A DNA stretch of 32,933 nucleotides. It comes from Candidatus Altimarinota bacterium (lineage in GTDB: Bacteria > Patescibacteriota > Gracilibacteria > BD1-5 > UBA6164). Position 1 is the first letter of the stretch. Each line of letters begins with the position of its first letter. The stretch is from NCBI GenBank assembly GCA_022448215.1, contig JAKVBB010000005.1:1-32933 (forward strand), in the 5' to 3' direction. Of this stretch, positions 10,250-15,963 are shown one piece after another. The translations under genes were made by a program, and so were the position numbers. The notes beneath the pieces are model-generated. The model made no database searches, was not told where the DNA came from, and saw only the letters and a list, made by a program, of their open reading frames with translations.

Positions 10250-12079
10250 ATGCATTTTTTTGATTATTGTATTCGCTCTTTTTCGCATATTACTCAATCT
10301 TATTTTGTTCCAGAAAAATGACCTGTTTCAGAACTTGAAGAAAAACAAAAACCACAATTTGATGTAACAGATACATCGAGTTATTATACAGAAACTCAAC
10401 TTAAAGAACTTCAAGAATTGACCGAGCAACTTGACATCATTAAAGATTCTGAAACTATTGTAGGAATTCACTCTGAAACACTTCGAAAAGCTCTGCTAGA
10501 AAAATGAGATCCACAAGATAAAGAATATCAAGAATTGGCTCAAAAAGTAAAAAGACTTCAACAAGAAGTATCACTTTTTAGTATAAAAGAAGATGAACTG
10601 AGTCAAAAAATTGATGAACTCAAAAAGGAAGCTCAATCCCAGATTCAAGAACTAAAATGAGAAACACCAGAATTCTTAGAACAGCAAGCAAATGAATATA
10701 TCAGTGAACGTGCTGAAGAATTATGAGTTGAAGCGGAGGTACTGATAACTCTGTTACAAGGAAAAAATTATGAAGATGCAGAACCAAAAGATCGTATTAT
10801 AATGATAGATGAGCTTTTGAAAGATTCAAGAGTTATTGAATGACTGGAAAAATATAAAAGTGAGACAGATGATATTAAAAAAGCTCAAGCTCTTGTCTCA
10901 CTCACCACTCTTCTTCATCCGAGTAATGGATGAGAAGTATTGAAAAATTTAGAAAAAAATGAAAAAATCCCATTTATTGCCAAGATAATTATTAAATTTA
11001 TTGAAGCTATTAGTGGAAAAAGCTTTTTACAGGAAGATTTTTACCAAAGTAGAGATTTGAGGGAACGATATGTTGAATTGAATAGTACAGAACTTGGAAG
11101 TTTATCAAAAAAACATGAAAGTGGAGATAAATGATCGGATGCCATTAATTTTGATGATAATGGAGCTTCTTCATTTGGGAGCTATCAACTCAGGTCTGAT
11201 GCACTTCAAAAATTTGCCAAGCAAAATGGAATTGAATGATTTGAATCATGAATACTCACATCAGATCATGAATTTACCAAAAATTGGAAAGCAAAAATTG
11301 ATGAACTCTGAGCAAAAAAATTTCATGCACTTGAACATGCATTTATCAAAAAAACTCATTATGATATCCAAATGAATAGTATTCAACAAGCATGAGTTCA
11401 AGCAAGTAAATTCTCAAAAACACTCAAAAATGTTATTTGGAGTACCGCGGTACAGCACGGTCCAAATACCAGTATTATTACTGATGTACTCAAAGATTTT
11501 TGACCACTTGAACCAGGAAATCCACAAAGTGAAAAGAAACTTGTAGAAGCTATTTATGCAGCTCGACTTGAGAAAAACCCAAAAGGAGAGAATCGTTATA
11601 ATTCAGAAAAACTCATCGTAGCTCATCAGCTTCAGGTATACTGAGAAAATGGAAAATGATTTACCTCTTTTCATGCAGAGAGAAGTAGGAACTGAACGAC
11701 CTTATGTTCCAGAACTGCTCGATTGAATTTGCAAGAAAAACTCGGTATTCAAGATGCAGCCCATGGATCTTCTGCAAAAGAATCATTTGGTGCCATAAAA
11801 TGAAAAGAGAACTTTTCTGAAAATCTCCAAGATTTATTCAGTCGTACGGATATAAATGTCATTGATCTATACTGTGATGCATCTCCAAAAAATAGAGAAT
11901 ATGGTCATCGTGCCGTTGCAGTAAGAGAGGGATGAAACTGGAAAATTTATGACCCATATTATAAAGTTGCAAATGGTATTAACGGTGTTGATGCACAAGA
12001 ATATATCACTCATATGCAACAACAAAAATGAAGAACTTTTTGGTGAGGAGTTGGATATAATTCAAACAAAGTTACTTAA
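10250..12079 (+). CDS. Coiled-coil protein with lysozyme-like and putative papain-like domains
   Basis: 609 residues with TGA as Gly. Residues about 45-200 are charged, Glu/Lys/Gln-rich and coiled-coil-like. From about 285 comes a lysozyme/muramidase-like region: SKKHESGDKG (candidate catalytic E290), then ASSFGSYQLRSDALQKFA and, later, STAVQHGP, a pattern seen in VgrG3-type and related peptidoglycan hydrolases. The C-terminal part has GTTLCSRTARLN (C486), GHRAVAV (H553) and WKIYDPY (D568), the order and context of a papain-like Cys-His-Asp triad (CHAP/NlpC-like peptidase or amidase). No signal peptide is obvious. Together these suggest a cell-wall-degrading enzyme with both glycosidase and peptidase/amidase activity. 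Use in self-remodelling or attack on another cell cannot be told apart. It ends at a strong terminator. Confidence 0.75.
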
Positions 12080-12080
12080 A

Positions 12081-12112
12081 AAACAATCCCGCATTTTGCG
12101 GGATTGTTTTTT
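12081..12112 (+). terminator. Intrinsic terminator after the hydrolase gene
   Basis: A perfect 12-bp stem AAACAATCCCGC/GCGGGATTGTTT (12081-12092 with 12098-12109), extended by one A-T pair, has a three-base TTT loop and a T tail. Confidence 0.9.
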
Positions 12113-12470: not shown

Positions 12471-12498
12471 TTGACAAAAAATAGAAAAAATATACACT
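12471..12498 (+). promoter_or_regulatory. Promoter of thrS and its leader
   Basis: TTGACA 12471-12476, 16 bases, TACACT 12493-12498 (an overlapping TATACA lies at 12491). Transcription would begin near 12505, leaving a leader of about 170 nt before thrS. Confidence 0.6.
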
Positions 12499-12529
12499 TG
12501 CACCTAAGTATTTTCTTTATCCAAGACAT

Positions 12530-12586
12530 ATGAGCTTCACATGACTTGAAACCATTGCCCAAACAACATCTTTACTGAAGCAGTAG
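12530..12586 (+). CDS. Putative threonine leader peptide of thrS (18 aa)
   Basis: The frame ATG 12530 to TAG 12584-12586 encodes MSFTGLETIAQTTSLLKQ, with 4 Thr in 18 residues, including a tandem ACA ACA at 12563-12568. The Gly is a TGA, so the peptide exists only under code 25. Its stop codon lies inside the first arm of the antiterminator stem (12581-12594), as in classical amino-acid attenuators. No Shine-Dalgarno is visible, as for other genes here. This is inferred from position, Thr content and RNA fold. Confidence 0.55.
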
Positions 12587-12651
12587 AGTATTTTTTGAGT
12601 CAATTATAAGAAAATCAAAATCTCTACTGAATCACAGGAAGAGATTTTTTT
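12572..12651 (+). promoter_or_regulatory. Transcription attenuator of thrS
   Basis: Three mutually exclusive stems can be drawn. The 1:2 hairpin is TTACTG 12572-12577 with CAGTAG 12581-12586 around AAG. The 2:3 antiterminator is CAGTAGAG 12581-12588 with CTCTACTG 12622-12629 (8 perfect pairs), plus ATTTT 12590-12594 with AAAAT 12617-12621, one bulge. The 3:4 terminator is AAAATCTCT 12617-12625 with AGAGATTTT 12640-12648, followed by Ts. A ribosome stalled at the two Thr codons would leave arm 2 free, form the antiterminator and allow thrS expression. A ribosome reaching the TAG would cover arm 2 and permit the terminator. Confidence 0.65.
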
Positions 12652-12673
12652 AAATATTTATTTTCATACCCCT

Positions 12674-14593
12674 ATGATACCACTTTCTACCAAACGACAC
12701 TCACTCGCACATATTATGGCACAAGCTGTAAAGCAAAACTTTCCGGATGCAAAAATAGCGACAGGACCAGATACTGAAGATGGATTTTACTATGATTTTG
12801 ATTTCTGAGATACTGAGTTCTCAGATAAAGACTTGAAAATCATTGAAAAAACGATGAAAAAAATCATCTCTCAAAACCAGGACTTTAAAACATTTGAAGT
12901 CAATTTTGATGAGGCACGAGACATTCTTGCTCAAATGGACGAAGAGTTTAAGTGTGAACTCGTTGATAAAATAGAGTCAGGGGATATGAAAAATACACTA
13001 CCCCCTACCCCCCTCCTTACTAAGGAGGGGGAAATGAGCGGAGCGAATGGGGGAGGTCCAATTAGTTTTTATTTCAATGTTGCAAAAGGGAAGAGTAATA
13101 ATGAAGATGTCCAAAATTTTCTTGCTCAAAAATCATTTGAAACATTTGAAGAACTGGATGGAGATCAAGTAAAAACACTCAAGTTTATCGATATGTGTAC
13201 TGGGCCTCATGTAGAAAACACGAGAGAACTTGATGCAAACAGCTTTAAGTTGGCTCGAGTTGCGGGAGCATACTGGTTGGGTGATGCTGATAATAAACAA
13301 CTTACTCGAATTTATGCCTATGCGTTTCATAACAAAGAAGAACTCGATGCTCATCTCAAAATGCTCGAAGAAGCCAAAAAACGAGATCATAGAGTGCTTG
13401 GGAAAAAACTCGATCTCTTCTGTTTTTCTGACTATGTATGACCTGGGCTTCCACTCTTTACTCCAGCCGGGGTAGTCATCCGAGATGAATTGCAGAATCA
13501 TATTGAGGGAGTATGTCGAAAGTATGGATTTGAAAAGGTCTGTACCCCGCATCTTTCAAAAATAGATCTGTTTAAATGTTCTGGACATGCCTATAAATTT
13601 AGCGATGAGCTCTTTCATGTAGGATCGGGGCATGGACATGAATTTGTTCTCAAACCAGTACAGTGTCCCCATCATACTCAGATATATGCTTCAAATCCAC
13701 GATCATATCGAGACCTTCCGTTTCGATATATGGAATCTGAAAAACAATACCGAGCAGAACAGAGTGGGGAAGTCGGAGGGCTTTCTCGAGTATATGCGAT
13801 CACCGTAGAGGATGGGCATGTATTCTGTCGAGTAGATCAAATCAAAGATGAAATCATTAATTTGATTCATATTATTCGAGAATTCTATACGGCTCTTGGT
13901 ATGTGGGATAAGGTATGGGTCAGTTTATCTGTACGAGATTATTCAAATCTCGATAACTATATTGGGGAAGAATCTGACTGGAATGTGGCTGAAAATATGC
14001 TTGCAGAAATCTCGGATGAACTCTGACTAGATGCAAAACGATGTGAATGAGAAGCTGCCCTCTATGGTCCAAAACTCGATTTTATGTTCAAAGATGCTAC
14101 GGGTCGAGAGATTCAAATACCTACTGTACAGCTTGACTTTGCAACACCACAGAGATTTGAACTCAGTTATAAAGACTCAAATGGAGAGGATGTCACTCCG
14201 GTCATGATTCATCGAGCGATTCTTGGATCATATGAGAGGTTTATGATGCTTCTCATCGAACACTTTGCGGGAACATTTCCACTTTGGCTGGCTCCACGAC
14301 AGGTTCGTGTGATCCCAGTTGCTGAAAAATTTGATGATTATGCCAAAAAAGTAGAACAAGAGTTAAAAGCAGAAGGTTTCCGAGTCGCTGGGGATTATAG
14401 CAATGATGGACTCAATAAAAAAGTACGAAATGCAGAGAAAATGCATGTGAACTATATACTCGTAGTTGGAGAAGAAGAACAAAATACATCTACAGTGTCT
14501 GTTCGAGATTATAAAACCAAAGAGCAAACTAGTGAAAACTTGCAAGATTTTAAGCAGAGAATTTTAGAAGAGTATAGAGAGAAGAGATTGTAG
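12674..14593 (+). CDS. thrS: Threonine--tRNA ligase, lacking the TGS domain
   Basis: 639 residues. The protein starts directly at the editing domain ([12 protein letters not shown] near 8-19, with the HxxxH; later CTGPHVENT) and lacks the N-terminal TGS domain of typical ThrRS. The catalytic class II core follows: KPVQCPHH (zinc ligand Cys), motif 2 [25 protein letters not shown], motif 3 around [15 protein letters not shown], then the anticodon-binding domain from [14 protein letters not shown]. It charges tRNA-Thr. Only 4 glycines use TGA by my count. Residues around 108-130 ([13 protein letters not shown]...GGGP) are an insert encoded by a C-rich palindromic repeat. It is preceded by a putative attenuator and stops at TAG. 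Confidence 0.96.
12998..13059. repeat. C-rich palindromic repeat inside thrS
   Basis: CTACCCCCTACCCCCCTCC-TTACTAA-GGAGGGGG and then a GAGCGGAGCGAA spacer and GGGGGAGGT: a full-length nested hairpin element. It is read in frame and contributes about 20 residues to ThrRS between the editing-domain segments. It is related in layout to the copies at 7844, 9193, 15984 and 16065. Confidence 0.85.
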
Positions 14594-15054: not shown

Positions 15055-15411
15055 ATGAAAAAATATACTATTTGTCTCATAGATGATAAATCATATGGTA
15101 TTCCTCAGCTCATTAATGCTATTCCTCAAGATATAGAATATGTATTTTATTACTATAATAGAATCACTGATATAGAAGATATTGACTTTGATATTGTGAT
15201 ACTTGATTATTATCTCGATAAAGACAATAAAACAGCACTCGAGATTATAGATAGGTTTCTGGGAAGTATTATTATTTGATTTTCTTCCGAAGACTCTTGT
15301 AACCAAAAAATGCTCCAAAATGGAGCTTTTTACTCTGCAAAAAAATTATCGAATACAAATTTAAATCTAGAATTACAAGAGATATTTAAAGATTTTTTAT
15401 TTCTTTCTTAA
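15055..15411 (+). CDS. Stand-alone response-regulator receiver domain protein
   Basis: 118 residues, the length of one REC domain with no output domain. It has the acidic pair D10-D11 (LIDD), the phosphoacceptor candidate D51 (VILDYYLD), a Ser near 77 after a hydrophobic strand (IIIGFSS) and the conserved Lys near 96 (SAKKL). The Gly before FSS is TGA 15277-15279. Such CheY/Spo0F-like proteins pass on phosphoryl signals or act by protein contact. No histidine kinase is nearby. The last 15 bases overlap the 3' end of tsaC on the other strand. Confidence 0.75.
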
Positions 15412-15963
15412 ATATTTTACTTCAATAGTATCTCATACAAATTCAAAAATATCTGATGGACTGATATTTGGATCCAGCTTTGGAGTACCAATAAATTCAA
15501 TTTTGTATTTTTCGATATTATAATTGAATCTCTCAAAAATATCATCTTTATTATACATCTCTGGTTCTCATGATTCATTCGCACTGGTGAGAAAGAGAGG
15601 ACCATGCTTTTTGAGGAGCTTTTCCTGTTCTGGAGTATGAGCTACTCGAAAAGCGATACGTTCGTATCTATCTCTATTTTCAAACATCACTTCATCATCT
15701 TCATAGTTCATCCAATGATGTACTGGAAGAGAATCTGTTAAAATCGTAAAAGGATTTGGGTACTTTTTTAAAAATTCGATTTGCTCATGAGTCAGGTCAG
15801 TATTTTTTTCAAGCCAAGAAAAACTCTCTACGAGAAGAGCGAGAGGTTTATCGAGTGTCCGTTTTTTAATCTTATAGATTTTTCTATAACTATTATGGTC
15901 ATTCATTGGGCAACCGAGTCAGTAGCAAGTGTCAGTTGCAATGAAGAATAAATTAAATTTCAT
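15397..15963 (-). CDS. tsaC: Sua5/YciO/YrdC-family L-threonylcarbamoyladenylate synthase
   Basis: 188 residues. TDTCYGLG at 10-17 (Gly 15 is TGA), KIYKIKKRTLDKPLALLV at 28-45, YPNPFTIL, an FRVA segment and GPLFLTSANESGEP are the signatures of the YrdC fold. TsaC/Sua5 uses threonine, bicarbonate and ATP to make threonylcarbamoyl-AMP for the t6A37 modification of ANN-reading tRNAs. It is the short (TsaC-like) form, without a Sua5 C-terminal domain. The start ATG 15963 places the TDTCYGLG strand close to the N-terminus as usual. YciO is an alternative family name. Confidence 0.85.

Follow-up and report, generated by a model that had tools for sequence, protein, structure and literature searches.

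The window, by which we mean the whole 32,933-nt stretch of DNA analysed here, encodes proteins that, among named genomes, match those of Candidatus Gracilibacteria MAGs. On its forward strand it carries thrS, preceded by a promoter, a short leader open reading frame (ORF) and a series of competing RNA helices whose arms are numbered 1 to 4 from 5′ to 3′:

12080–12110, + strand: intrinsic terminator of the gene upstream, a 14-bp perfect hairpin followed by a T-run
12471–12498, + strand: promoter, TTGACA (12471–12476), 16 nt, TACACT (12493–12498)
12510–12615, + strand: outermost helix of the default fold, ATTTTCTT (12510–12517) pairing with AAGAAAAT (12608–12615)
12530–12586, + strand: leader ORF MSFTGLETIAQTTSLLKQ, 18 codons, ATG at 12530, stop codon UAG (12584–12586) inside arm 2
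12542–12602, + strand: outer part of the 1:2 stem, UGACU (12542–12546) with AGUCA (12598–12602)
12570–12588, + strand: hairpin 1:2, arm 1 CTTTACTG (12570–12577) and arm 2 CAGTAGAG (12581–12588)
12581–12629, + strand: antiterminator 2:3, 12581–12594 with 12617–12629, −13.3 kcal/mol
12617–12652, + strand: intrinsic terminator 3:4, AAAATCTCT (12617–12625) with AGAGATTTT (12640–12648), U-run to 12652
12674–14593, + strand: thrS, threonine–tRNA ligase (ThrRS), 639 aa, with four in-frame UGA codons read as Gly

The gene upstream ends in a strong terminator of its own, which sets the thrS transcription unit apart. The leader ORF lies 87 nt and the end of the U-run 21 nt 5′ of thrS, the identity of which is given by NCBIfam TIGR00418 (612.9 bits against a cut-off of 383.65). 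Promoter and terminator scans of the window sequence alone each scored at chance level. Most genomes of the family, however, have the same promoter layout (TTGACA/T-N16-TAnAnT about 40 nt 5′ of the leader start), with a mean best score of 9.3 of 12 versus 7.35 for shuffled sequences. Several neighbouring features were recorded in passing. The gene adjoining the thrS unit upstream (10250–12076, + strand) encodes, in this CPR genome, a protein of 609 aa that carries a T6SS VgrG3-like domain (PF21277) at its C terminus, and near thrS, on the opposite strand (15400–15963), lies a gene of the Sua5/YrdC/TsaC family, which acts in the threonine-using synthesis of threonylcarbamoyl-AMP. Inside the thrS coding region, a palindrome, CCCTCCTTACTAAGGAGGG (13011–13029), forms an in-frame insertion at about residues 107–128; palindrome-like repeats also occur within or just 5′ of thrS in four relatives (L003, L004, L010 and L016), and all of this has the look of a mobile palindromic element able to sit in coding regions.

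The leader ORF contains Thr codons at 12539, 12551, 12563 and 12566, the last two forming a tandem ACA ACA, and its codon 5 (12542–12544) is a UGA that must be read as Gly. All of the elements named in the preliminary description of this locus (the promoter, the 18-codon leader with four Thr codons and tandem ACA ACA, and the stop inside arm 2) are present in the sequence. The dependence of the peptide on UGA=Gly, also pointed out there, agrees with the decoding of ThrRS itself: two of its four UGA codons fall at positions that are Gly (GGN or UGA) in 11/11 relatives checked, the third lies where most relatives have Gly and the fourth occupies a variable position, a comparison that supports UGA=Gly for the genome.

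Downstream of the Thr codons, the RNA can form three alternative helices. The antiterminator (12581–12594/12617–12629) and the terminator (12617–12625/12640–12648 with its U-run) lie exactly where the preliminary description had placed them; the 1:2 stem, assigned there to 12572–12586, exists and is somewhat longer (12570–12577/12581–12588), and a T-run (12591–12596) follows its arm 2. Antiterminator and terminator are mutually exclusive, arm 3 being common to both, and arms 1 and 3 have almost the same sequence, as would be expected of two arms that share arm 2 as partner. Stand-alone energies in the window are −7.0 (1:2, a modest hairpin), −13.3 (2:3) and −10.6 (3:4) kcal/mol, with z-scores against shuffled sequences of −2.7, −3.6 and −3.3, respectively, and the folding of the whole leader was beaten by just 3/200 shuffles. 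Within the single sequence of the window, this fold evidence is suggestive.

To follow the element through relatives, in 57/60 of which thrS was located, we used a covariance model built from 30 leaders (R1) and a broader one (R2). R1 found one strong copy in each of 36/36 family genomes, most of them training genomes, normally 5′ of thrS; the E-value was 6.5e-16 for the window and 2.4e-9 to 1.4e-24 for the other family genomes, mostly training sequences. R2 detected the element in seven family genomes absent from training (G203, G228, G247, G267, G283, G286 and G293). Many genomes of the sister family f2 have it too, as do five from f13, a further family of the class, in all five directly 5′ of thrS. 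Secondary model matches (G000:C71, G024, G018, G009 and others) resemble ordinary terminators, and a search with a simple DNA pattern of the leader core lacked specificity. In a survey of 30 further genomes of the class, Thr-run leaders (for example, MKNTTTTTTTITE, MFAFPAIFTTTTTG and MNTVSTTSTTTTTLLSPEVV) precede thrS in f7, f8, f9 and f13, mostly with a terminator; these leaders retain their Thr runs and have lost most of the conserved block described below. Of 40 genomes from other classes in the phylum, five have T-box cores at thrS, two have Thr-run ORFs and most have neither. In this sample, the leader-peptide solution is thus dominant in the family and order of the window, common across the class and seldom seen beyond it.

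Other genes stand between leader and thrS in some genomes and are presumably co-regulated with it. In G033, the leader is followed by threonine synthase (TIGR00260, over cut-off), NUDIX, a protein of the shikimate kinase family (best NCBIfam model homoserine kinase, below cut-off), an unknown gene and, last, thrS; elsewhere, unrelated genes (NUDIX, VKOR, lipoproteins, Imp-YgjV) are found in this position.

The relatives share one plan: promoter, start codon, x-L-A-Q-L-x-T, Thr-rich run, stop codon, U-run and terminator. Comparison of 59 leaders, with peptides of 11–25 residues, showed that both the reading frame and the Thr codons are kept, two features for which the preliminary description had proposed such a comparison. 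Of the in-frame codons, 26.9% are Thr, compared with 4.0% and 13.0% for the two alternative frames, and the total of 246 Thr codons compares with 88 ± 8 after the bases of each ORF were shuffled; as the set was gathered partly through Thr content or core sequence, these figures describe the set and are not fully independent of its selection, which affects the same-frame comparison and synonymous variation less. In 58/58 alignable leaders, a Thr stands two codons past the conserved Leu, encoded by ACC in 35, ACG in 15, ACA in 7 and ACT in 1, and this use of all four codons indicates that it is the amino acid that is conserved. Thr-poor leaders with one or two Thr codons also exist (L014, L053, L007 and L040).

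Owing to length differences in arm 2 and the spacer, RNAalifold on a MAFFT alignment recovers the terminator alone, and we therefore adopted a cross-pairing test that compares, for each arm pair, the pairing of own partners with that of partners from other genomes. Own partners beat every permutation for 1:2, 2:3 and 3:4 (0/10,000 each, in permutations that ignore relatedness), whereas for control arms (5′ UTR versus arm 3) 936/10,000 permutations reached the own pairing. As relatedness is ignored in these permutations, the comparison was repeated within genera: in 36 same-genus pairs, own pairing was better in 25 (1:2), 21 (2:3) and 27 (3:4) and worse in 8, 8 and 2, respectively, the others being ties, and a Wilcoxon test over 13 genera gave p = 0.009, 0.003 and 0.0005. 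Kinship entered this same-genus test alone, and the other genome counts given here are uncorrected for phylogeny. In the terminator, compensatory changes occur at 6/9 pairs. The covariation of stems that the preliminary description had suggested looking for in relatives is thus found in all three helices.

Co-evolution extends outwards from hairpin 1:2. For the outer extension of its stem, the own-partner mean was reached by 7/5000 permutations; for the outermost helix (12510–12517/12608–12615), co-evolution is weak (71/5000). Where the window has UGACU/AGUCA in the outer 1:2 stem, relatives have CACAAC/GUUGUG, so that the change of a Gln codon to UGA has its counterpart in the opposite strand of the helix. 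This UGA sits where most relatives carry CAA (Gln), and the same CAA to UGA change is seen in G007 and G042/G056; other genomes of f2 have CGA, a possible intermediate between CAA and UGA.

The position of the ORF relative to the helices is that of the trp, his and thr leaders. The leading edge of a ribosome lies about 12 nt past the A site. With the ACA at 12563–12565 in its A site, a ribosome on the window leader would reach approximately 12577, the end of arm 1, and one at the stop codon would cover arm 2. Across the leaders, the distance from the end of the stop codon to the T-run closing arm 2 has a median of 4 nt (10–90%: 2–12 nt), and that from the start of the last Thr codon to the U-run closing arm 2 has a median of 22 nt. 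Under a strict criterion, only 26/59 leaders show a 1:2 hairpin that reaches 3 kcal/mol and has a U-run, versus 3 in shuffled sequences.

We propose that the thrS leader very probably senses charged tRNA-Thr as a ribosome-mediated transcription attenuator of the classical kind. The trp/thr-type logic had been put forward in the preliminary description and is supported by the stem compensation and by the conserved frame and Thr codons. The threonine synthase gene behind the leader in G033 and the matching-codon leaders at proS and valS (below) also speak for it, whereas the Thr-poor leaders, the modest 1:2 hairpin and the genes that separate leader and thrS in some genomes fit it less well. As read from the sequence and its comparison, the leader has the frame, the Thr codons, the promoter, three exclusive co-evolving helices, the terminator, the spacing and the position at thrS that such a device would need; the coupling of ribosome and polymerase, the stalling and the response to threonine we infer from them. 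Transcription would start near 12505, and a ribosome would then translate the leader. When Thr-tRNA is plentiful, it would reach the UAG at 12584–12586 and cover arm 2, leaving arm 3 to pair with arm 4, so that the terminator would form and thrS would remain untranscribed. When Thr-tRNA is scarce, the ribosome would stall at the tandem ACA (12563–12568) and cover arm 1 (12570–12577); arm 2, now free, would pair with arm 3 in an antiterminator that excludes the terminator, and thrS would be transcribed. Without a ribosome, 1:2 would form and termination would be the default.

One feature exceeds this scheme. At the start of the leader ORF, GCACAACTT is conserved at the nucleotide level, with GCA as 45/45 of the Ala codons and CTT as 54/57 of the Leu codons, GC-rich genomes included, and neither this block nor its fixed codons are required by a codon-counting mechanism. 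We entertain, as a doubtful possibility, a second, sequence-specific input besides Thr counting, located at GCA CAA CUU, x-Thr in the covarying outer helix, where the partner might be a protein, an RNA or the nascent chain. Under the same reading, the recurrence of UGA at the Gln codon might tie the switch to the decoding of the reassigned codon.

The same fixation of GCA and CTT could be explained by a protein or RNA binding site, and ThrRS or another protein might bind the leader RNA and shift the balance of terminator and antiterminator, with the ORF playing a secondary part. E. coli ThrRS, which has a TGS domain, binds its own mRNA, and the arrangement would resemble that of E. coli thrS, acting on transcription instead. 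We regard this as unlikely, given that the Thr codons vary synonymously yet stay Thr, that the leaders in f7, f8, f9 and f13 keep their Thr runs without most of the conserved block, and that no TGS domain was seen by Pfam in the window ThrRS, unlike in the E. coli repressor. In translational autoregulation of the E. coli type, ThrRS represses through tRNA-like operator hairpins that overlap the thrS start; the conserved structure here lies upstream of the gene and ends in a terminator. More improbable again is that the leader encodes a nascent arrest peptide (M-x-L-A-Q-L-x-T...) responding to a signal different from Thr starvation, with the same hairpins as output: the conserved N terminus does exceed the needs of codon counting, but a peptide of 11–25 residues would barely fill the exit tunnel, its Q gives way to L, R, K, H or Gly in relatives, and Thr content is the sole feature common to all families.

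Control of the terminator by a T-box or by some other riboswitch that binds tRNA or a ligand, with an incidental leader ORF, would have precedent within the phylum. The window gave no match to the T-box (RF00230; stem I with specifier, core NGGGTGGNACCGCGG) at the gathering threshold or at E ≤ 1, nor to any other Rfam family, Thr_leader included; a match to HIV_GSL3 at E = 0.4 is due to chance. No T-box was found in the leaders of the family either. The leader is, moreover, too short for a T-box, and its frame and Thr codons are conserved, so that a riboswitch is highly improbable here. The preliminary description, which contrasted this locus with the T-boxes at thrS in Firmicutes, was right that none is present; in other families of the same class, however, T-box-like leaders do occur at thrS. 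They are L267 of f14 (E = 8.7e-8) and L262 and L265 of f12 (0.0017 and 0.034), all under the Rfam gathering score, and the core GGGTGGAACC is also visible in L261. Further T-box-like leaders or cores at thrS, from elsewhere in the phylum (other families and classes), are L278, L279, L283, L286 and L308. Scoring below the gathering threshold where scored, such leaders are probably missed by standard annotation. Finally, although promoter and terminator scans of the single sequence are at chance level, the idea that hairpins and an accidental ORF fell into line by chance is refuted by conservation (36/36 family genomes, seven non-training genomes, Thr enrichment and co-evolving arms), and we give it practically no weight.

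Similar leaders precede other aminoacyl-tRNA synthetase genes. In two genera, the model matches upstream of proS (assigned by TIGR00409), where the leaders have conserved Pro codons (MNKQMNLHLQPLNPSQ, MKQLLNWHLQPLNLSS, MNTKQNRNLQPLIPSI and MNTQNNWYLQPVNPSI); the proS leaders of L116, L117, L235 and L241 look attenuator-like and conserve LQP. At valS, an attenuator-like leader with Val codons (VVV; L157) was found once; in G036, the gene is preceded by MFYKNTTSVVVKA with its stop codon and by a terminator. No consistent leader with terminator was found among 30 pheS loci, no consistent leader at serS and the other class IIb synthetase genes sampled, and no such leader at ileS in family searches. 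Separately, the valS 5′ UTRs of family genomes L160, L166, L167, L170 and L171 conserve a box, taatatgacaacatatta ... acgagtc ... aacaggcaatt, with no obvious leader peptide, which is possibly another regulatory RNA. A Phe-rich short ORF (..NFFYFFFS..) followed by a terminator and a small-gene/trxB cluster with trxB-like genes was seen at L107 (G027:C10:119843), and a related one (..LQPFYFFFSR, L214, G001) precedes a class IIb synthetase gene.

Attenuation at a synthetase gene, which the preliminary description had set against control of a biosynthetic operon, is not unusual in itself. The E. coli pheST operon, with its pheM leader peptide, has a cognate-codon attenuator of an aminoacyl-tRNA synthetase, and like it the window combines a cognate-codon leader peptide, antiterminator and terminator at a synthetase gene, for another amino acid and with no sequence relation shown, pheST belonging to a gammaproteobacterium with the standard code. 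The E. coli thr operon leader (Rfam Thr_leader), which counts Ile as well as Thr, shares with it a Thr-rich leader peptide and competing hairpins; it controls biosynthesis, however, and the window has no Rfam match to it. In the literature, pheST is cited as classical attenuation, and Streptomyces trpS and leuS have predicted ribosome-mediated attenuators (PMC1262725), as have hisS/hisZ of bacilli, with His leader peptides (PMC2965389), all of these predictions concerning other amino acids and phyla. The closest counterpart in target is the candidate thrL leader MKRVRPFLETTPGFVPAR upstream of thrS in Streptomyces lividans TK24, likewise a short leader with Thr codons; it has two Thr only and one hairpin, with no U-rich stretch and no clear terminator (PMC8079986), whereas terminator and antiterminator are present and co-evolve in the family of the window. 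The T-box riboswitch at thrS in Bacillota (PMC12452182) serves the same gene through the same signal, uncharged tRNA-Thr, and by transcription antitermination, but there the RNA binds the tRNA directly, with no ORF. In the literature that we searched, we came across no publication dealing with leader peptides of Gracilibacteria or Patescibacteria.

The mechanism is thus already known in other bacteria and apparently not previously described in this group; what is surprising is not the logic but the lineage, the breadth, the alternation with T-boxes and the recoded leader. Within one class and at one gene, a leader-peptide attenuator in at least six families stands beside T-box-like leaders in two others, so that the exchange of two sensing systems for one signal becomes testable on a tree. 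For an uncultured class of CPR bacteria with reduced genomes, some of whose lineages read UGA as Gly, the comparison of sequences points to functional coupling of ribosome and RNA polymerase, and suggests that these cells tune their supply of synthetase to the level of charged tRNA.
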